This document shows positions 1 through 7,912 of a DNA stretch of 64,000 nucleotides, piece after piece. Location of the stretch: NCBI GenBank assembly GCA_016790285.1, contig JAEUPJ010000090.1:1-64000 (forward strand), written 5' to 3'. Origin of the DNA: Roseateles sp. Its GTDB lineage: Bacteria > Pseudomonadota > Gammaproteobacteria > Burkholderiales > Burkholderiaceae_C. The number at the start of each line of letters is the position of its first letter. Position 1 is the stretch's first letter. The translations under genes and the position numbers were made by a program. The notes below the pieces were generated by a model. The model made no database searches, was not told the DNA's origin, and was given only the letters and a program-made list of their open reading frames with translations.

Positions 1-138
1 GCGCTCGACCGACTCAACGCAAGAAAGGAGAGCCCAAGAACTCAGAGATATCCACAGACACCGGCTCCCTCGGGTAGCCTTCAGGGGTGGGTCAGTATTG
101 AACGAGCAGCCCGGGTCAGTTCTGCGCGAGCGTCAACA
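1..138. mobile_element. Probable end of an IS21-family-like insertion sequence (rest lies outside the window)
   Basis: Two direct copies of GGGTCAGT (89-96 and 113-120, 24 bases apart) lie just inside a boundary that reads TGTTGACGC on the minus strand (ending at 138). Repeated TGACCC-type motifs next to a TGT...ACA terminus are what I know from ends of IS21-family elements; that family assignment is recall, not a match. The boundary falls exactly where an AbiJ-like coding sequence stops making sense: its last Cys codon and stop codon belong to this element. No transposase coding is visible in the 138 bases. It could also be another IS type or a recombination scar. Confidence 0.4.
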
Positions 139-429
139 GTACTCGTATGAGTACCAGCCGCTGACCGGCATGTCTGTGCCGAACGCATTCTTCTGCGTGT
201 AGGAGTAGTAGCGAGGGGCAAGCTCCTTGCGCCCGAGTTCGTTGGCCAGTTGATCGTGCAGCTCCTTGTATTTGGCGACGTTGGGTGCGTTCTCCTTGCC
301 ATCGCGCCAGTACGGATAGACCTCCTTGATGAGGTTGTAGATCTGCGTCATCAGGCGGCGCTCTGCATCACCAAATTTGGACCAGATCGGCAGGTCTTTG
401 TACCGGTCTGCAAAGATGTCGGTCAGCAT
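133..429 (-). pseudogene. AbiJ-like N-terminal domain protein, 3' end lost
   Basis: A 98-residue reading frame starting at the ATG at 429 (the longer frame to 738 has low-complexity, unlikely composition). It begins MLTDIFADRYKD and continues PIW, F, a hydrophobic helix and an EVYPYW segment, which resembles the AbiJ N-terminal domain type 4 found at the head of abortive-infection-like proteins with a C-terminal effector or HEPN region. Those proteins are several hundred residues long, so only the head is present. The frame ends ...WYSYEYC followed by a stop; the TGT TGA codons coincide with the start of the IS-like end at 138, so insertion most likely removed the remainder. A GGGAAG stretch lies about 15 bases upstream of the ATG. 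Family assignment is by recall of the motif pattern and is moderate. Confidence 0.5.
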
Positions 430-856
430 GTTCTCGAGCTTTCTTCCCTGAGTCGCGTCAATGCTAAGCGAGCGGCCGCTGGCAGCCTTTACTGCACATC
501 CGCCAGTCATCCATTCGCTGCGGCCAACTTCTCTGGGTCGAAAGCGCCAGCTCGACATTCGACGCAGCGGTCGGTCAAACCGGCTTGACACACTGTGCGC
601 CGACCAGGCGGCCTGGGCGCCCGCTTCACCTCCGACAGCCGTCATCGCTGCTCGCTGGCCGCTGGCTGAGCCGACGGCGGCTTTGTGGCCGAGTCCGTGC
701 GTCCGGCTGCGTGCCGCGAAAGACAGCACCCGCTGCAAAGCGGCAGTTCACCGAGCCCCGCAGCCAGAATCGCTAATGCCTGCCGCCCCATCTTGAGCGG
801 CACACTAGGCGCGACAAACCAACGTCAGCCCCTATCGGTAGCGTCAAGGCGATTCC
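430..856. other. Intergenic region without a convincing gene
   Basis: About 430 bases between the AbiJ-like fragment and the SRAP gene. Several reading frames are open across it in both directions but all have low-complexity, Arg/Ala/Ser-rich translations typical of GC-rich non-coding DNA. There is no good ribosome binding site for any of them. No LexA box (CTGT-N8-ACAG) is present upstream of the SRAP gene. Confidence 0.6.
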
Positions 857-1582
857 ATGTGCAACCTGTATCACGTCAGTCCTAAGGGTGACTTCACCAC
901 CTACATCGCCCGGCACGTCGCGCAGTGGGCCATCCCTGACTACGACTTGCGCACCGTGGGCCCGAATCAAGATGGGGTCTTCTTTCGCGCTTCGGATTCC
1001 CAGGTCCTCGGCCAGGTTGGACAGTGGGGCCTGATCCGCCCAGGCCAGCCCGAGCGCATCGACTACCTGCCCTCCAAAGTTCCCGGCAAACGCGGCCGTC
1101 CTCGCAGCACCAACAACGCCCGCATCGAAGGCATCGACCGCAAGGTCACTTTCCGCAGCGCTTGGGCCGCAGGACAACGCTGCCTGGTTCCTGCCCTTTG
1201 GTACCAGGAACCCAACTGGCAAACGGGCAAGAACATCTGGTGGCAGCTCAAGCGTGCCGATGGCGATCCGTGGATGTTGGCGGGACTCTGGTCAGAGTGG
1301 ATTGATCCTAAAACCGGCGAGGTAGTGCCGAACTTCACCATGCTGACGATGAACTGCGATTCGCACCCGCTCCTGAATCGCCTGCATAAGCCCGATCCTG
1401 AGTTGCCGCCCGACGCCCAGGACAAGCGCTCACTCATCCACGTCGAGCCGAGCAACTGGGATCAATGGCTTCACGGCTCCATCGACGACGCGACAGCGCT
1501 GCTGCAGCCGCCACCCGTTGAAGCCTTCGACCAAGCCGACGCTATCAAGACTAACCAGCTGCTTGCCGCCATGGCTAGCTGA
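857..1582 (+). CDS. SRAP family protein (SOS response-associated peptidase, YedK/HMCES type)
   Basis: SRAP proteins form a covalent thiazolidine link through Cys2 to abasic sites in single-stranded DNA and protect them during replication. Cys2 follows the initiator Met directly (MCNLYHV), as the mechanism requires. An NNARIE segment at residues 86-91 matches the conserved Asn and Glu of the active site, RCLVPALWYQE at about 108-118 matches the RC(L/I)VPA-x-G(F/Y)YEW core, and His177 in the LNRLHKPDPELPP segment matches the conserved H-x-R-M-P region. Length 241 residues is usual. The variants MCNLYH (family: MCGR-F) and HKPDPEL (family: HDRMP) put it in a divergent subgroup. Its 3' end overlaps the convergent LexA-controlled gene by 8 bases. 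No LexA site was found before it. Confidence 0.93.
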   Translation: MCNLYHVSPKGDFTTYIARHVAQWAIPDYDLRTVGPNQDGVFFRASDSQVLGQVGQWGLIRPGQPERIDYLPSKVPGKRGRPRSTNNARIEGIDRKVTFRSAWAAGQRCLVPALWYQEPNWQTGKNIWWQLKRADGDPWMLAGLWSEWIDPKTGEVVPNFTMLTMNCDSHPLLNRLHKPDPELPPDAQDKRSLIHVEPSNWDQWLHGSIDDATALLQPPPVEAFDQADAIKTNQLLAAMAS

Positions 1583-1880
1583 GGATGCGGCACCACCACC
1601 ATTGCTCGTACTGCGTCTCGCCCTTCTTGCGTTCCGCGTCGGGCCCACGCTGAACGCCAGACAGCACGACGTTGCGTCCCTTCCAGTAGCGCAGCTTCAC
1701 CTGGCAGAGGGTTTCAAGTTGGTAGGGGCGAATGTCGGCATAGAGCGGCGCCCACTCAATGTCTTGATGAGTCCATCGACGTTCCACCGTCAGCTCTCCG
1801 CGCACAGGCTTGAGCTGCTTTCGCGCTTCTCGCGACAGCTTTTTGCCCTGCCACCAGAGCTCAACGACTTCAACTAGCAT
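1575..1880 (-). CDS. Small conserved protein of unknown function under a LexA box
   Basis: A 101-residue basic protein beginning MLVEVVELWWQGKK and rich in Trp and Arg, ending QWWWCRILS. I do not recognise a named family. The start is the ATG at 1880, the only ATG at the head of the frame; a GTG start at 1940 would put the operator inside the coding sequence and has no ribosome binding site. The ATG overlaps the outer base of a perfect LexA palindrome, and the predicted transcription start falls on or next to the ATG, so the mRNA would be leaderless. The gene is convergent with, and overlaps, the SRAP gene. Regulation by LexA implies a role in the SOS response; function is otherwise open. Trp/Arg-rich small proteins can bind nucleic acid, but that is only a possibility. 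Confidence 0.8.
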   Translation of the reverse strand: MLVEVVELWWQGKKLSREARKQLKPVRGELTVERRWTHQDIEWAPLYADIRPYQLETLCQVKLRYWKGRNVVLSGVQRGPDAERKKGETQYEQWWWCRILS

Positions 1881-1916
1881 ACTGTAAATATAAACAGTAT
1901 TCGGCGCCGCTTGCAA
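1880..1916 (-). promoter_or_regulatory. LexA box over a sigma-70 promoter of the 1575-1880 gene
   Basis: The palindrome TACTGTAAATATAAACAGTA (1880-1899) has perfect TACTGT/ACAGTA arms and eight A/T bases between CTGT and ACAG, the E. coli-type LexA operator that also works in betaproteobacteria. On the minus strand a -10 TATATT (1887-1892) lies inside the box and a -35 TTGCAA (1911-1916) lies 18 bases further upstream. This geometry puts the transcription start at about 1880, the first base of the downstream ATG. The site could also influence the plus-strand gene at 2062, but no good plus-strand -35 was found. Confidence 0.85.
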
Positions 1917-2061
1917 TGAGGTGGGCAGCCACCCCTCCACTTCGGTGTGAGCGCTGCGTCTATCGCGCAGTGCGGAGCTGGTTGCCCCTGCCTTGCGGTC
2001 GCTCCAATGGCCTGACCGACACTCATCCCTGTCGTCTGAACTTGGCGTTCAAGAGGTAGCT

Positions 2062-3273
2062 ATGCGCGGATCACAGAACTTGTTCGGTGCCTTGCTCGTC
2101 AGCGTTTGCTTGTCCAGCCCGGCCGCCGAACTTGGCATCGCCTCGTTCAACATCGCTTGGGCCGGCACCACTGACGACTTTGCCGAACACATTCGTGTGT
2201 GCACGGCCCCGACCGTGAACTGGTGCGACACGCGTGCTCGCATTCCCAAGGGTGCCAAAGAGCCAACGACAGAAGAGGCCTTGCGCGCGAAGCAGTGCCA
2301 GGCTGCCTTTGATGAAGTTGCTGGAGGCCCAGCAAAGGCCTTGCTGGTCGCGCCTTGCAATGCCTACAGGCTGACGGCGACCAAGTGGGCCAAGACAACG
2401 TCTGAGGCCTATGCCGAGAAGCTCGATGGCCTGCGCAAGACCGTCCATGGGCTGATCGTGGATCGAAAGGTGGACGTCATTGCCTTTCAGGAGGTGCGCT
2501 CTGAAGCAGCCATCAAAGAGGTCCTGAATGAACACAGCACCGAGTTCGATGCCTGTGTGGCGGCTCACTCTTCATTCCAGACGGTTGGGTTTGCATGGCG
2601 CCGGTCTGTCTCGTCCAAGCCTGGCAAGTGCACGGCCGAACCGGGCTTGGCCATCAAGGAGCAACCCAACGACTCTGAATCGCTGCGGTTCCTCAGGCCA
2701 GGGCTCGCACTCAGGCTACGCATCGGCAATGAGCCAGTGACCTTGATGAACGTGCATCTGAAGTCCAGTTGCGCCAACCTGCGTGACAGTGCGGCGTTCA
2801 AGGGCCACGAGTTAACGGATCCGGATGCAGCATGCCTGGTGCTCAACCGCCAGGTCGCGCCGTTGGAGGCATGGGTCGAGCGTGTCTCGAAGGACTCACC
2901 GCTCTTTGTCTTGCTTGGCGACTTCAATCGGCGGCTCGACGAGGAAGCCGAGGCCAAGGTTCCAGCCGACCAGGTACGTGCAGATGGCAGCGATCCCGCC
3001 AAGCCGAACAAGCCAGGCCCGAACGGCGAAGTAGGCACCCGATTCCTTTGGCAAGAGCTCTCGGATGGAGATCCGTCGCTGGTTCAGATCCCGCTCAAAC
3101 CGGCGACCGGCTGCAAGGGCTTCGTTGGGTTGGACCACATCTTGATCAGCGAAGCGCTCAGTGCCCGCCAAACGGTGCAACTGGAATCGGAGAAGCTACC
3201 GATCGAGCAGAAAGACAAGCAGCTCATCATGACCAGCGATCACTGTCCACGGGTGAGTAGAGTCAGCCTCTGA
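2062..3273 (+). CDS. Exported endonuclease/exonuclease/phosphatase family protein
   Basis: A 403-residue protein of the EEP (DNase I-like, Mg-dependent phosphodiesterase) superfamily. The catalytic motifs appear in the right order: SFNIAW (metal-site Asn), FQEV (Glu), NVHLKS (His), LLGDFNR (Asp and Asn), GLDHI and the C-terminal SDHCP. The ATG at 2062 has AAGAGG five bases upstream and gives a hydrophobic signal peptide (LFGALLVSVCLSSPAA), so the enzyme is probably periplasmic or secreted. A long insertion between the first motif and FQEV (about 90 residues with several Cys) suggests disulfide bonding, consistent with export. Substrate is not decided by the sequence: DNA, RNA and phospholipid head groups are all used in this fold. 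It lies in the island; the next gene downstream is on the other strand. Confidence 0.85.
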   Translation: MRGSQNLFGALLVSVCLSSPAAELGIASFNIAWAGTTDDFAEHIRVCTAPTVNWCDTRARIPKGAKEPTTEEALRAKQCQAAFDEVAGGPAKALLVAPCNAYRLTATKWAKTTSEAYAEKLDGLRKTVHGLIVDRKVDVIAFQEVRSEAAIKEVLNEHSTEFDACVAAHSSFQTVGFAWRRSVSSKPGKCTAEPGLAIKEQPNDSESLRFLRPGLALRLRIGNEPVTLMNVHLKSSCANLRDSAAFKGHELTDPDAACLVLNRQVAPLEAWVERVSKDSPLFVLLGDFNRRLDEEAEAKVPADQVRADGSDPAKPNKPGPNGEVGTRFLWQELSDGDPSLVQIPLKPATGCKGFVGLDHILISEALSARQTVQLESEKLPIEQKDKQLIMTSDHCPRVSRVSL

Positions 3274-3347
3274 CGGCAAGCTGTGCGGTGGCAAAGATAG
3301 ACAGGCATGCGCGGGGCGAACTTGCTTGGTCATGCCGCCCGAGTGGA

Positions 3348-3584
3348 CTACGTCACCGAGGCTTCGATGCGGGCGCTGGTCCGGGCCAGTTGACGTCGCA
3401 GAACCTCTTTGTACTCGGCCGCTATGCCGAGCAGCTCGTCAAGCGTTCTGACGGTCGTTTGGATCACGGAGAGATCGCCCAGGTCGTGAATCTCGCAAGC
3501 GGTCGAGAGACGGTGCTGCAGGGTTTCGATGACAGGCTGCGCGGCAAGCATGGTGTCCTGGATTTGCTGGATTGGATGCTTCAT
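3348..3584 (-). CDS. Small hypothetical protein
   Basis: A 78-residue protein starting MKHPIQQIQDTM at the ATG at 3584, which is preceded by a good GGAGG site eight bases upstream; this start is preferred over the longer frame to 3656. The protein is predicted to be largely helical with heptad-like hydrophobic spacing (LSVIQTTVRTLDELLGIAAEY), so it may dimerise. I do not recognise a family. It is the last of three minus-strand genes in a row (4386 to 3348); the gap to the preceding gene is 108 bases. Confidence 0.6.
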   Translation of the reverse strand: MKHPIQQIQDTMLAAQPVIETLQHRLSTACEIHDLGDLSVIQTTVRTLDELLGIAAEYKEVLRRQLARTSARIEASVT

Positions 3585-3692
3585 GATGACCTCCGGCGAC
3601 CAAGTGAAGACCTGAAGTTTCAGGCCACGGAAAAGGACCAGATCATGACGTCTCAAAGGAAGCGAAGGATTCGCGTCTGCGCTGGTACGGCT

Positions 3693-3923
3693 TCACTTCT
3701 GAAGCGCCGAAGCATCTTCGAGCAGGACCTTCGCCAATGGGATCAGATGGCGCCCGTCGGACGCGAGTTCGGGAGTCCGGACTTCGAGCGGCTGATGGAA
3801 GAAGATCGGCAGCAAGGCGCGGGAGTCTTTGACCCAGCGCTGAAGTGTCTGTTCCCATGTGACACATGAACCGACAGCGATACCTCGTGGCTTGACGCTC
3901 GTGAGTTGGAATCTCTTCAACAC
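3693..3923 (-). CDS. Small hypothetical protein, GTG start
   Basis: A 76-residue frame starting at a GTG at 3923, ten bases after the stop of the upstream gene (3934), so translation is probably coupled. The sequence has ordinary amino-acid composition with three Trp/Phe-rich stretches (WEQTLQRW, PIFFHQPLEV), unlike the frames on the other strand. No ATG is available. Family not recognised. Part of the three-gene minus-strand cluster in the island. Confidence 0.5.
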   Translation of the reverse strand: MLKRFQLTSVKPRGIAVGSCVTWEQTLQRWVKDSRALLPIFFHQPLEVRTPELASDGRHLIPLAKVLLEDASALQK

Positions 3924-3933
3924 CTGTGACGGT

Positions 3934-4386
3934 TCAGCTCACACGGGGAGCTGTCGGGGCTACCCAAAGTAGCAAGGCCGTTTCCGCTTTGCCGGCAGGT
4001 TCCGGAATCAGGCCGAAGTTGAATCTCTCGCCAGCCGCATCAGTCAACAGTACGTGCTCCACTGAGTCAGAACGGCATAGCCAAACCTCGCGAATCTCGC
4101 GCGAACCCCACTGACCAGTGGGGGACTGCCAAGCCGGCATCATGCAGACGATGCCTAGGACGCGCTTCGCGTCCAGGTCGCGCAATACATCGGCCAAGTC
4201 GAACTCCCAAGCGATGCAGATGGTGCGGGTGATGACGAACTCGGGATCGTCCTCATCTGCGATCTCCACTGAAAGCAGGTACCAGGGCACATGCAGTGAC
4301 AGTTCGATCACCCGCCAGTGCTGGGTACCTGGTTGATCAAGGGCTGCAGGGATAGGAAACTCGTACTCGGGACGGGAAACGAACAT
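3934..4386 (-). CDS. Hypothetical protein
   Basis: A 150-residue acidic protein starting MFVSRPEYEFPIPAALDQPG at the ATG at 4386. It has no signal peptide or membrane segment; several Trp (IAWEFDLADVL, MPAWQSPTGQWGSREIREVW) and mixed beta/alpha character suggest a soluble globular protein. The ribosome binding site is weak. It heads a minus-strand cluster of three small genes and is divergent from the XRE regulator at 4571; a palindrome at 4425-4444 lies between them. No family recognised; the divergent regulator suggests it is a regulated accessory gene. Confidence 0.6.
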   Translation of the reverse strand: MFVSRPEYEFPIPAALDQPGTQHWRVIELSLHVPWYLLSVEIADEDDPEFVITRTICIAWEFDLADVLRDLDAKRVLGIVCMMPAWQSPTGQWGSREIREVWLCRSDSVEHVLLTDAAGERFNFGLIPEPAGKAETALLLWVAPTAPRVS

Positions 4387-4424
4387 GGGGGCGCTGCGCA
4401 GAGGTGGCGAATGCTCATGACCGC

Positions 4425-4444
4425 CTGAGGTTTAAATAACTCAG
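4425..4444. promoter_or_regulatory. Palindrome between divergent genes, possible operator
   Basis: CTGAGGTTTAAATAACTCAG is a near-palindrome centred on TTTAAA. Its right half read on the other strand is CTGAGTTAT, which recurs with one change in both arms of the palindrome at 4888-4927. It sits between the hypothetical gene at 4386 (minus) and the XRE gene at 4571 (plus), the usual place for an operator shared by a regulator and its target. Confidence 0.45.
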
Positions 4445-4570
4445 CAAGATTCTGCGCAGATGGTGCGATATTGCCAAGCTTTGCAACGCAAGGTTGACTT
4501 CTTTGGCGGGGAAAAAATGCGCTTACCGAATATGGCTCGAGATGAGCTAGGGTGCGGCGCGGAAACCACC

Positions 4571-4873
4571 ATGGCCAAGACTCTTCACTCCCGTCACAAC
4601 GAGATATTCCTGGAGAAGCTCCACAGCGCGCGCCTCGGAAAGCGCCTCCGCCAAGCCGACCTCGCTGACCGTTTGGGTCGTGACCAGACCCTGGTCAGCA
4701 AAGTGGAAAGCGGTGAACGAAGGCTTGACGTCATCGAGCTTCGCGATTGGCTGATAGCACTGGACATCGACTTCATCAAATTTCTCAGCGAGCTGCATGC
4801 TGAGCTAGGTCCACATGGCGCGTCCCAACTGCGCGTGCTGAGAAGCAAGGCTCCAGAGAGTCCATCTTCCTGA
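4571..4873 (+). CDS. XRE-family helix-turn-helix regulator
   Basis: A 100-residue protein, start ATG at 4571 with GGAAA upstream; starts at 4460 or 4517 are possible but would add an unconserved tail. The HTH spans about residues 14-68: LRQADLADRLGRDQTLVSKVESGERRLDVIEL, the typical small XRE form with the S-K-V-E-S-G-E-R-R-L-D signature. A short C-terminal extension has no recognisable effector domain. The protein is probably a dimeric DNA-binding repressor of island genes, and the nearby palindromes (4425-4444, 4888-4927) are candidate sites. Confidence 0.85.
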   Translation: MAKTLHSRHNEIFLEKLHSARLGKRLRQADLADRLGRDQTLVSKVESGERRLDVIELRDWLIALDIDFIKFLSELHAELGPHGASQLRVLRSKAPESPSS

Positions 4874-4887
4874 TGGGTCAGAGAAAA

Positions 4888-4927
4888 CAATTGAGTTATC
4901 TATAACGTGGTGTAGATAGCTCAGTTG
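4888..4927. promoter_or_regulatory. 15-base-arm inverted repeat upstream of the second XRE gene
   Basis: The arms CAATTGAGTTATCTA (4888-4902) and TAGATAGCTCAGTTG (4913-4927) match at 13 of 15 positions around a 10-base spacer. The arms carry TGAGTTAT and TGAGCTAT, close to the CTGAGTTAT half of the palindrome at 4425-4444. The repeat ends 16 bases before the ATG at 4944, so it could be an operator for autoregulation; the two mismatches would pair as G-U in RNA, so an mRNA hairpin is an alternative. Confidence 0.55.
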
Positions 4928-4943
4928 TCGGAGCCTTCGGCGG

Positions 4944-5240
4944 ATGCGTTTCCGCCCGAAACATGAACCAAAGCCCGGCCGCCCCAAGGGCTACAGCAGC
5001 CTAGATGAGGGCATTGCCAGAGCCTTTGGCGAAACTGCGAAGGCAGCGCGCTTGAAAGCTGGGTTGTCGCAAGAGGCATTGGCGCTTGAGACGGGCATTG
5101 AGCGTTCCTATATCAGCCGGCTGGAGCGAGGCCTCAGCCAACCTAGCCTACTTGCATTGCTCAAGCTGGCAAAGGGCCTTGGCTGCGAGCTGTTCGAACT
5201 ACTGGCGCCTGTGGAAAAGGCCTTCAGGCGCCGCCGCTAG
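4944..5240 (+). CDS. XRE-family helix-turn-helix regulator
   Basis: A 98-residue protein with a basic, Pro-rich N-terminal arm (RPKHEPKPGRPKGY) and an XRE HTH at about residues 33-88: RLKAGLSQEALALETGIERSYISRLERGLSQPSLLALLKLAKGL, the classical phage-repressor-type sequence. The C terminus ends in a short basic tail (AFRRRR). It is in the same orientation as the XRE gene at 4571, 70 bases downstream, with a strong inverted repeat in the gap. It is the last intact gene before the island boundary. Confidence 0.88.
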   Translation: MRFRPKHEPKPGRPKGYSSLDEGIARAFGETAKAARLKAGLSQEALALETGIERSYISRLERGLSQPSLLALLKLAKGLGCELFELLAPVEKAFRRRR

Positions 5241-5402
5241 TCTTAGCTTCAAAGGCCAGACTTCGGTGCAGACGGCGTCTCCTCCCAAGTCAGACGGCAC
5301 TGTCGACCCTCCATTCAAGATTGCCTCTTCTGAAGTTACTGGCGATGCCCACGCTAGAACCTGCCGTTCACCTAGTCTGAACAATTTGCTTGTCGTATAA
5401 GC
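5241..5402. other. Right edge of the acquired region
   Basis: There is no gene in these 162 bases. Base composition is still low in G+C, in contrast to the sequence from about 5403 on. The last 20 bases carry stop codons just before the truncated radical SAM reading frame, and no recognisable integrase gene, terminal inverted repeat or tRNA end was found, so the mechanism of joining is open. Confidence 0.5.
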
Positions 5403-6245
5403 ATGGGGTGCATCTACTGCTTTGCACGGCCCACGCACAGCTACCTGAACCTGTCGCCGGGACTGGATTTCGAGACCCGCATCGTCGCCAAGGTGAACGC
5501 CGCCGAGCGCCTGCGCGAGACCCTGGCCGGCGCGCGCTACGAGCCGCGCTCGCTGGTGCTGGGCACGGCCACCGATGCCTACCAGCCTGTCGAGCGCCAC
5601 CTGGGCATCACGCGGCGCGTCGTGGAGGTGCTGGCCGAGACGCATCACCCGTTCTCGGTCGTCACCAAGTCCTCCGGCATCGAGCGGGAACTCGACCTCA
5701 TCGCGCCCATGGCGGCGCAGGGGCTGGTGTCGGTCTACCTGTCCGTCACGACGTTGGACAACGACCTGGCACGCATACTCGAGCCGCGGGCAGCCGCGCC
5801 GGCGCGGCGCCTGCGCACCATTCGCACGTTGACGCAGGCTGGCGTGCCGGTGGGCGTGAGCGTGTCGCCCATCATTCCCTTCATCAACGAGCCCGAGCTC
5901 GAGCGCATCCTGGAGGCCGCCGCCGAGGCGGGCGCGAGCAGCGCCTTCAGCATCCCCGTGCGGCTGCCCTGGGAGGTGAACCCATTGTTCCAGGACTGGC
6001 TGCAGCGGCATTTCCCGGACCGCGCCGATCGCGTGATGGCGCGCATCCGCGACATGCGCGGTGGCAAGGACAACGACGCGCGTTTCGGCACCCGCATGAC
6101 GGGCGAGGGCATCTGGGCAGACCTGCTTCGCGCACGCTTGCGCCGCGCGTGCAGCAGGTTGGGCCTGGGTACCGAGCGCCGGCCCGTGCAGCTGGCGCTC
6201 TTCGCACCGCCGCGCAAACCGTCTGCGCAGGGCGACCTGTTCTAG
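5403..6245 (+). pseudogene. PA0069-type radical SAM protein, 5' end missing
   Basis: The 280-residue frame starts MGCIYCFARPTHSYLNLSPGLDFETR, which in PA0069-like radical SAM proteins follows ...RGCEHG. The cluster motif C-x3-C-x2-C therefore has only its second and third cysteines; the codon at the place of the first reads Ile, and the frame is closed by a TAG a few codons upstream. About 70 residues expected at the N terminus are absent. The rest (SAM-binding barrel, TLDNDLARILEPRAA, the C-terminal PVQLALF tail) is intact and without frameshifts, so the truncation is probably recent. Without the first Cys the 4Fe-4S cluster cannot form normally, so the product should be inactive. Composition changes at the same point. 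The 3' end overlaps the eptA stop codon on the other strand. Confidence 0.85.
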
Positions 6246-7912
6246 CGGCGGCAGCCTGCGAGCAGGTCCCACTCGGGCTTGTAGACGTCGGCCCGCGCGC
6301 CGACCCAGCCCATGGTGGTGTGAAAGAGGTTGTCGTGTGAGGCTGGCTTGTCCAGCAGGCCTTGCAGGCAGCCGGGCTTGAGCGACGCAGCCAGGGCGCC
6401 CTGCGGCGGCAGCCACAGGATCATCGGCACGTGCGTCTGCTCGCGCGGCGCGAGCGCGTAGGGCATGCCGTGCAGGTACAGGCCGTTCTCGCCCAGCGAC
6501 TCACCGTGGTCGGACACGTAGAGCATGCCGGTGTCGAAGCGCGCCTGCTGCGTCTGCAGCCAGCCGATGGCGCGGGCCAGCAGCCGGTCGGTCGTCACGA
6601 TGGTGTTGTCGTAGCCGTTGACGACCTGCTCGCGGGGGCATTTCTGCAGCTCGTTGCTGCGGCACTCCGGCTGGAAAGGCTTCAGGTCCGGGGGCGAGCG
6701 CTTGTAGTAGGCGGGGCCGTGGCTGCCCATCTGGTGCATCACGAGCACCAGGCCGCGGCTCAGACGCTCCGGGTCGAGGGCGGCCACGCGCTTGTCGAGT
6801 TCGTGCAGCAGCGCTTCGTCGAAGCACTCGCCGCCATTGCACAAACCCGCCGGCATCGGTGCCGCGGTGTCGGGCAGATTGGCGGTGAAGCTGTTCGGCA
6901 CACGGTCGCACAGGCCCTTGCAGCCACTCTGGTTGTCCAGCCACAGCACGGCCAGGCCCGCGCGCTGCAGCACGTCGAGCAGGTTCTCCTGCGGCTTGTC
7001 GGCGTCGAAATCGGCCCGCCCCTGGGGCGCGAACATGCAGGGCAGCGAAGCGGCCGTGGCCGTCCCGCAGGAGCTCACCTGGCGCAGGCTCAGCAGGCTG
7101 TTCGGCGGCAGCTTGGCCAGTTCAGGGTTGGTGGGGCGGGCATAGCCGTTGAGGCTGAAGTTCATGGCGCGTGCGGTCTCCCCCACCACGAGCAGCAGCA
7201 GCGGCGGCTTGGCGCCTTCGGCACGCGGCAGCAGCTTCACGTCCGCGCCGATGACCACCGGCGGGCCCTTGGGGCCGGAGAGGCTGCGCACACCGACGGC
7301 GCTGAGCGAGTAGACGCCGTTCAGCGGCGTGACCATGTAGCGGATGCTCTTGTGGTTGCGCATCGTCGAGGACAACGTGGCGAACACGCTCAGCGCCAGC
7401 ACCACCATCGCCGCCACCGCGAGCACGAAGGAGGTCAGGTTGCCCGCCAGCCGCTTGCCAGCGGCCTGCGCCGGCGGGGCCGGGCGGCGCAGCAGCCACC
7501 ACGCGGGCAGCACGCCCAGCAGCAGCAGGCTGACGGCCAGGCGCCAGCTCAGCAGGTCGCGCGTCTCGCGCACGTCGGTCTGCACCATGTTCACGACCAT
7601 GGTGGGGTCGAAGACGATGCCGTAGGCGCCGATGAAGTAGGCCAGGGCGCCAGCGGCCAGCAGCAGCACCACGATGGCGCCCTTGACGAGGCGAGGCCAG
7701 GCCAGCAGGCTGAGCACGGCGCCGGTGGCCGCGACCACCATGCCGGCGAAGGCGACTGTGAAGCCCAGGCCGATGCCGGGGAGCGTCTGCAGCTGCTTCC
7801 ACAGCGGCCAGTTCGCCAGCAGGCCCATCCAGAGGGCGGCCAGCCACGCCTGGGTCAGGGGGCGGGTGGTGTCGGGCTGAAACCAGGCCAGGAGGCGCTT
7901 GAGCAAGGGCAT
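6242..7912 (-). CDS. eptA: Phosphoethanolamine transferase, EptA/MCR family
   Basis: Transfers phosphoethanolamine from phosphatidylethanolamine to lipid A in the inner membrane, lowering negative surface charge. The 556 residues have about five membrane segments in the first 185 residues and a periplasmic alkaline-phosphatase-fold domain. Seen: metal Glu245 in VVGETAR, catalytic Thr284 in SCGTATAASLPCMF, Asp468/His469 in SDHGESLGENGLYLHG, and several paired Cys typical of the family (C282/C292, C331/C335, C358/C363). It ends convergently with the radical SAM remnant (stop codons overlap) and its ATG is about 90 bases downstream of the response regulator gene stop. No PmrAB-like system is adjacent. 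Confidence 0.95.
   Translation of the reverse strand: MPLLKRLLAWFQPDTTRPLTQAWLAALWMGLLANWPLWKQLQTLPGIGLGFTVAFAGMVVAATGAVLSLLAWPRLVKGAIVVLLLAAGALAYFIGAYGIVFDPTMVVNMVQTDVRETRDLLSWRLAVSLLLLGVLPAWWLLRRPAPPAQAAGKRLAGNLTSFVLAVAAMVVLALSVFATLSSTMRNHKSIRYMVTPLNGVYSLSAVGVRSLSGPKGPPVVIGADVKLLPRAEGAKPPLLLLVVGETARAMNFSLNGYARPTNPELAKLPPNSLLSLRQVSSCGTATAASLPCMFAPQGRADFDADKPQENLLDVLQRAGLAVLWLDNQSGCKGLCDRVPNSFTANLPDTAAPMPAGLCNGGECFDEALLHELDKRVAALDPERLSRGLVLVMHQMGSHGPAYYKRSPPDLKPFQPECRSNELQKCPREQVVNGYDNTIVTTDRLLARAIGWLQTQQARFDTGMLYVSDHGESLGENGLYLHGMPYALAPREQTHVPMILWLPPQGALAASLKPGCLQGLLDKPASHDNLFHTTMGWVGARADVYKPEWDLLAGCRR

Follow-up and report, generated by a model that had tools for sequence, protein, structure and literature searches.

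The mobile elements closest to the islands described here are SE elements, the ILE of rulB and the GInts. In SE elements (strand-biased circularizing integrative elements), three proteins of the tyrosine-recombinase fold (catalytic, non-canonical and catalytic) are followed by a small protein, the ends are imperfect inverted repeats with six native base pairs on the left and a foreign 6-bp fingerprint on the right, and site specificity is high; the available passages thus describe features that recur at the present site (PMC10214605). According to these passages, the 6 bp of the target come to lie at attL and the spacer of the circle at attR; they report no Tfp or Srap homologues in alpha- or betaproteobacteria, do not contain the term "radical SAM" and describe no spare target gene (PMC10214605). 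Similarly, the accessible parts of the ILE report describe three recombinases with a small tetR-like gene and site-specific entry into a UV-tolerance gene, but the target is rulB and the elements measure 9–16 kb (PMC4542609). GInts, compared here by description only and from excerpts of the paper, share three integrases, a small fourth gene, a tripartite island and site-specific insertion (PMC5385486). In these excerpts, unrelated GInts occupy one gene (ssb), and GInts are known in betaproteobacteria and other groups; on the other hand, their targets (an ABC transporter gene, ssb and an RNR gene) are different, and the first arginine is missing from the third GInt product, whereas in the trio at our site it is missing from the second (PMC5385486).

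The target at our locus is a radical SAM gene. The window, the whole stretch of 64,000 nucleotides that was analysed, is contig C41 of a Roseateles genome (G000), taken from base 1. Its 280-aa ORF at 5403–6245 on the plus strand (MGCIYC...) is the 3' part of a native PA0069-family gene; in a profile search it matched NF033668 (rSAM_PA0069) over positions 70–348 and, despite its truncation, passed the curated cut-off (375 bits against 360). Intact genus-mates read ...NPYRGCEHGC[IV]YCFARPTH, whereas the window ORF begins MGCIYCFARPTH; the break therefore falls between the first and second cluster cysteines, inside CEH/GC, as a preliminary description of this DNA had proposed. The ORF is thus a broken member of the family with an incomplete C-x3-C-x2-C motif, the first cysteine being encoded on another contig (C10), and native sequence runs from about 5407. 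The same description gave some 70 residues as missing: the N-terminal truncation stands, but 70 is a profile count, and about 95 residues are absent in an alignment with intact genus-mates. The change in G+C content that it placed at the break is sharp, with 59.5% in 1–5402 against 70.0% in 5403–64000, where the lowest of 266 windows of the same size reaches 65.8%. Downstream, a conserved neighbour on the minus strand (6242–7912), in our own reading a putative sulfatase gene, adjoins the radical SAM gene in 11 of 19 genus loci (L002–L020), and the locus is therefore native.

A query made of 96 residues from the N-terminus of a genus-mate located the missing 5' part in the same genome at C10:63830–64111, at the other end of the island, where the preliminary description had suggested looking for it. 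This half ends ...GGCTGCGAGCAC/GTTATGCGG and is broken at the base that matches the break in the window (codons ...GGC TGC GAG CAC G/TTATGCGGCGAC), 2.0 kb from the end of the contig. G+C content is 59.4% in the island arm on C10 and 69.0% just upstream of it, and a LexA-type box, CTGTATATATTCACAG, is retained at the start of the 5' half. PA0069 is a member of the LexA regulon of P. aeruginosa. A genome search found no second match to the C-part in G000, and an unsplit frame of at least 377 aa is present in 18 of the 19 other genus genomes, the remaining one (G006) being split at the same place. Because the 5' half lies on C10, no second C-part was found and the neighbour is conserved, the gene was native and whole before the island. 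The ORF does have an ATG and an open frame, but its single copy in the genome leaves no intact gene of which it could be a duplicated fragment, the unsplit genus genes speak against homologues that naturally start at MGCIYC, and with the matching break on C10, the kept neighbour and the missing first cysteine, we rule out a natural short homologue or duplicate, whose probability is minute.

The island occupies positions 1–5400 of the window (its right arm, which runs off the contig start) and, on C10, the stretch that starts near 64112 and runs off the contig at 66092 (its left arm). With both junctions mapped and the halves of the gene separated, the proposed island boundary inside the cluster motif is confirmed. 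The right terminal motif TGAACAATTTGCTTGTCGTATAA (5378–5400, plus strand) forms an imperfect inverted repeat with the left end, TTATGCGGCGACGAAAGATGTTCA, on C10, and these two ends (C and C') share 18 identical positions in an alignment of 25 and 24 nt. Native AGCACG stands beside the left end, and a 6-bp fingerprint, GCATGG (5401–5406, plus strand), stands beside the right; the latter bases are foreign, judged against 18 uninterrupted genes of the genus and 25 other split genes with identical spacing.

Among the right-arm genes are an SRAP-domain (SOS response associated peptidase) gene (857–1582, plus strand; Pfam PF02586, E 2e-19), an endonuclease/exonuclease/phosphatase-like gene (1993–3273, plus; PF03372, 25.2 bits against a cut-off of 24.5) and two HTH genes (4460–4873, plus, HTH_3 E 6.7e-6; 4944–5240, plus, Cro/C1-type, HTH_3 E 1.4e-16), the second of which adjoins the right end and resembles HTH genes from the islands of relatives (46% over 50 aa). 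A LexA-type box, CTGTAAATATAAACAG (1882–1897), is the only CTGT-N8-ACAG in the window; directly downstream of it lies a small minus-strand ORF of ~101 aa from an ATG at 1880 (1575–1880), whose longer 121-aa frame matched nothing in Pfam or NCBIfam at E 0.001. Another ORF without a match in these databases (3934–4386, minus) is, over about 290 nt, 67% like a stretch of contig C52 in G006, the one exception in island DNA that otherwise differs between the two genomes. An ORF at 133–738 (minus) weakly resembles AbiJ_NTD4, at a level that Pfam's cut-off excludes (E 2e-4). Positions 10–138 are about 80% like Methylibium plasmid DNA, in one record beside an IS21-like istB gene, and a repeat there may be the cause of the contig end. 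A plasmid search for relatives of the arm returned 10 records with short matches only (2–6% of the query), mostly to the SRAP gene.

Are the same codons split in other genomes, as the preliminary description had wished to see checked? Within the genus set of 20 genomes, G000 and G006 are cut at this point (frames of 289 and 282 aa), and the 5' half in G006 likewise lies on a separate contig. In the same family, the gene is also split in G154, and G223 holds a complete 43-kb island within one contig; G268, where a contig break falls within the gene, was excluded from the split count. A search of 84,980 species genomes with the pattern ATAA-N5..11 followed by the CIYC[FY]ARP codons returned 31 stretches, all 31 of them truncated copies of the radical SAM gene and all from proteobacteria (Massilia, Paraburkholderia, Burkholderia, Cupriavidus, Noviherbaspirillum, Variovorax, Rugamonas, Rhodanobacter, Frateuria, Pseudomonas, Marinobacter and three alphaproteobacterial genomes, among others). 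Since G223, with the arginine codon AGG, falls outside this pattern, it does not capture every case. In the 29 genomes searched next, to which G154 (L040) and G006 (L049) do not belong as they had been searched separately, the C-part was always present and a separate N-part stopping near the motif was found in 27, the exceptions being G415, without an N-part, and G423, with only a copy that continues past the motif until the contig stops.

Where a single contig contains both halves, the islands measure ~4.7 to 99 kb. In Massilia Root335 (L096 ~6521; G418:C19 208493–209328), the 99 kb between the halves hold one intact copy of the radical SAM gene and a second, stop-containing relic, and may be a tandem of two islands. 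The halves in P. aeruginosa PA7 are located at 76.1 and 151.1 kb, 75 kb apart, and the insert fits, by place and size, the known island RGP63. The available part of the paper on RGP63 describes a 75-kb island with an integrase at its left end, and PA0069 and radical SAM do not occur in its text (PMC2809737). A search of titles and abstracts, with most subscription papers outside its scope, found no published insertion into a PA0069-type radical SAM gene; in the portions of papers searched, PA0069 as a whole word occurred only in one on chromosome segregation.

The junctions of these islands have a constant geometry. Exactly 8 nt separate ATAA from the TGC of the second cysteine in 24 of the 31 hits and in G000 and G223. 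Left junctions are visible for 19 of these 26 islands, reading CA[CT]-GTTAT in 13 and GGTAT, GGTCT, GAAAT or GTTAA in six. Beside the left end stand the six native bases A[GA]CA[CT]G, and beside the right end about six variable bases, which differ among relatives, precede the native gene. The ends of the window island (left TTATGCGGCGACGAAAGATGTTCA; right, reversed, TTATACGACAAGCAAATTGTTCA) fit those of its relatives, TTATrCGnCA...TGTTCA. This arrangement, native on the left and variable on the right, agrees with the published SE rule. The remaining seven hits are 11-nt junctions, all in Pseudomonas, and their left junction retains CA[CT]GGCTG.

Recombinases of the trio were found at the left end in 19 of the 26 islands with the 8-nt spacing: all three in 14, and one or two in five, where the contig, the analysed stretch or the trio itself ends. 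The other seven islands were untyped or had no trio found (G154, G415, G423, G430, G433, G435 and G000). In 11 islands, P1 (~410–490 aa), P2 (~600–670 aa) and P3 (~730–820 aa) stand in this order at the left end, mostly followed by a small P4; in Frateuria, the contig ends partway through P2, after P1, and Poseidonocella and G426 have P1 only, the latter within the 3 kb covered. Five islands start with P2 in a second gene order: PA7, G419 and Massilia Root335 have P2, P3, further genes and then a P1 homologue, and in G006 and M. alkalitolerans, contig ends truncate the arrangement. In nine islands that cluster, the trio is followed by a gene of 147–223 aa. In alignments, P1 has the full tyrosine-recombinase set R-K-HxxR-H-Y (GLR, GKG, HdLRHT, GH, Y), P3 aligns with P1 along the catalytic part with a nearly full set, and P2, by our own reading, has Asn in place of the first Arg and a Cys-rich C-terminus. 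A chance insertion by a DDE transposon, Tn7-like or other, would account for the short inverted ends, but not for two ends without target duplication, for the use of the same place in many genera or for the tyrosine recombinases in 19 of 26 islands, and is very improbable.

Identities of P1, P2 and P3 to the first row of their alignments are 22–34%, and the site is therefore common to old lineages. A single origin of the trios at the site is weakly supported by the trees (86/87 for P3 and 46/12 for P2), in which six islands of one recombinase group have support of 97/97 in P3 and 92/95 in P2. The P2 of G006 matched none of 399 family genomes, which reflects the divergence limit of the search and not absence, and a plasmid search with P2-type proteins gave 31 records, all below 60% identity and mostly from alphaproteobacteria. 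Trio-type genes also occur elsewhere in genus genomes with an unsplit radical SAM gene, at L147 (G007), L148 (G011), L149 (G008) and L150 (G004).

The recombinases of the ILE nested in RGP63 of PA7 match P1, P2 and P3 in order (1.4e-35, 4.6e-13 and 9.9e-13), so that relatives with the first gene order have a trio homologous to the published ILE and arranged alike. We take the nested trio to be the ILE of PMC4542609, whose available passages treat this 10-kb ILE inside RGP63 and not the entry of RGP63 into a radical SAM gene. By these similarities, trios related to the ILE kind are present at this site in alpha-, beta- and gammaproteobacteria.

Gamma-Mobile-Trio elements combine a trio of recombination genes with defence cargo, and the VPA1267 family is presumably linked to them. 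The PA7-type order comes with a 128-aa protein near VPA1267_fam (42 bits, model cut-off 90), encoded at L071 5472–5858 from the left junction of the PA7 island, beside the P2–P3 recombinases. This protein hints at a kinship between the PA7 island and Gamma-Mobile-Trio elements; VPA1267_fam, below its cut-off, was the only such model among the matches of G223- and PA7-type proteins, which included none of the Gmt protein models, and membership was rejected on the cut-offs.

In the window island itself, no trio followed by a small gene was found at the left end: the two arms gave no trio matches, the middle of the island being unassembled, and a search of the G000 assembly found no P2 or P3 homologues, so only its ends and its site assign the element to the group. 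The left arm contains, ~0.17 kb from its junction, a relic that resembles the N-terminus of the cargo radical SAM copies (MHLVMGRGPGSNT, stop, SRFEAWTREKEIMY, stop). It was matched by 13 of 15 cargo queries, eight of them at E <= 0.003 and the best at 6e-8, against 0.26 for the best of 57 host queries (E-values computed for the two arms only). The element thus appears to have decayed, with no trio in the assembly and only this stop-containing relic of a spare gene, and we read it as a decayed member of the group by its ends and site, and not as a working SE-type element.

The five 11-nt elements that were covered whole each carry a large serine recombinase, in one case split over two frames, and the two of these searched contain the Pfam Resolvase and Recombinase domains. 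In the Pseudomonas loci L079–L083 (G414, G437, G439, G434 and G441), serine-recombinase elements of 4.7–10 kb have their crossover a few bases downstream in the same motif. The suggestion in the preliminary description that conservation of the motif makes it an insertion target gains from the use of the site by two trio arrangements and of a point a few bases away by an unrelated serine recombinase, although it is still unproven.

Could the islands make good the damage that they cause? What the preliminary description had not seen is that many islands bring a second copy of the gene they break. These copies are divergent and usually full-length; they often sit no more than 0.5 kb from the right end, and most have a LexA-type box of their own. 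A second copy is present in 13 of 22 genomes with the 8-nt spacing, always on the side of the junction where the island lies; among the matches listed, the figure for other genomes of the family is 4 of 205 (Fisher p 2e-12). This control covers one bacterial family with at most six candidates scored per genome, not all 205 genomes were seen to be unsplit, and many split genomes belong to other orders. Few genomes enter the comparison inside the family, where 2 of 4 split ones have full copies (p 0.004). The control copies are those of G035 (broken), G264 (partial), G157 and G309. The last two (G157:C3:257957–258985 and G309:C341:6442–7500) have 49–50% identity, and the genomes' own gene is unsplit.

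The copy lies between both halves on one contig in five of the 13 genomes (G418, G422, G427, G431 and G432) and in G223, where it scores 469 bits, above the NF033668 cut-off. In eight of the 13, it is 0.08–0.5 kb from the right junction; the copy in G430 is frameshifted. G423 was counted as lacking a copy, as its copy (residues 9–195) runs through the motif to the contig end with no separate 5' half, and a C-terminal piece of a second copy at a contig end in G154 was not counted. The G006 copy is on contig C52, which starts with the later part of P3, and the earlier part ends contig C30; the copy is therefore most likely island-borne.

In a tree of 99 C-parts, from which five (L040, L042, L043, L062 and L067) and the G430 cargo copy were left out as too short, the split genes cluster with those of the same host or of related hosts. 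On the other hand, 8 of 14 cargo copies form a clade of their own apart from the host genes (99/95); of the others, two from Xanthomonadales form another clade, one stands alone and three from Massilia fall among Massilia host genes. The cargo copies of the six islands of one recombinase group are all in the main clade, and copy and recombinase are not in perfect step, since G006, with the second gene order, has a main-clade copy as well. A CTG[TC]-N8-[AG]CAG box lies before the start in 11 of the 15 cargo copies and in 16 of the 21 host 5' halves, where ~0.02 would be expected per stretch.

DNA-damage genes are common on islands, and the radical SAM copies might be ordinary cargo with no special link to the target. 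Besides its copy, the G223 island encodes ImuA, a DnaE-type polymerase, a BilD homologue and type I Zorya (ZorA, B, C and D in PADLOC). Furthermore, none of the seven serine-recombinase elements has a cargo copy, and no second copy was found in 8 of 24 junction genomes (G415, G419, G426, G428, PA7, G433, G436 and G438), so the spare gene is not obligatory. Against this stand the excess of second copies in split genomes over the control, among the matches listed there, their position close to the right junction and the single cargo clade of the six islands of one recombinase group, and we consider ordinary cargo unlikely, if far from negligible.

Another possibility is that the cargo copies are immune targets, in which the att-like stretch has been recoded against the element or a sibling. 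In the core of 30 nt (RGCEHGCIYC), the 15 cargo copies are a median of 8 nt from the host consensus, compared with 2 for 57 unsplit genes (p 3e-9), and the invariant R is changed in seven and the E in two, while all three cysteines are kept in all 15. In three Massilia copies, synonymous changes are enriched in the core (22 of 30, against 119 of 351 in other codons, p 3e-5). For all 15 copies, however, the difference is small (80 of 133 against 826 of 1544, p 0.08), the core differs at 0.269 per nt against 0.301 in other conserved codons of the same genes, and changes at I are found in unsplit genes too. Since the core has changed little more than other conserved codons, most of its change can be put down to general divergence, and immunity by recoding is doubtful; we rejected it as the main story for all cargo copies, whole-gene divergence being nearly as large. 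The copies may escape the recombinases, but local evidence for this comes only from the Massilia group. The Massilia cargo copies (L093, L094 and L096) look chimeric, with a host-like C-part and a foreign N-part and motif: they are 85–88% like the host gene from 60 nt past the core onward, 70–78% in those 60 nt and 63–67% upstream.

The junctions, the separated halves, the inverted end motifs and the 6-bp pattern are directly observed, as is the same insertion, with a trio at the left end, in many species. We think it likely that the window holds the right end of an island in a native radical SAM gene, entered site-specifically at C-E-H/G-C by an SE-type route, and that such islands bring a substitute gene. 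The island would enter the native, LexA-boxed PA0069-type gene by site-specific recombination at these codons; in an SE-type copy-out/copy-in process, the 6-bp spacer of the circle would become the right flank, and the target bases would remain at the left. We infer that the spare gene is a functional replacement of the broken host gene, in which case the cargo copy would substitute for the destroyed one and thereby lower the cost of insertion.

It is also conceivable, at a probability somewhat short of even, that a lineage with three recombinases has an old partnership with this SOS-type gene, entering at cluster-motif codons that cannot change and carrying a LexA-controlled substitute that escapes its recombinases through sufficient difference in its motif DNA. 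If so, the element would pay for its damage and protect the spare part, and a repair-type gene of the host would be swapped for the element's version. The catalytic codons of the radical SAM gene are an intragenic insertion hotspot, used by two trio gene orders and, nearby, by serine recombinases, and they provide the entry point of the island that fits RGP63 in PA7. The locus makes it possible to test whether a mobile element replaces the host gene that it interrupts, and it supplies a natural series of knock-outs and swaps for a radical SAM family under LexA-type boxes.
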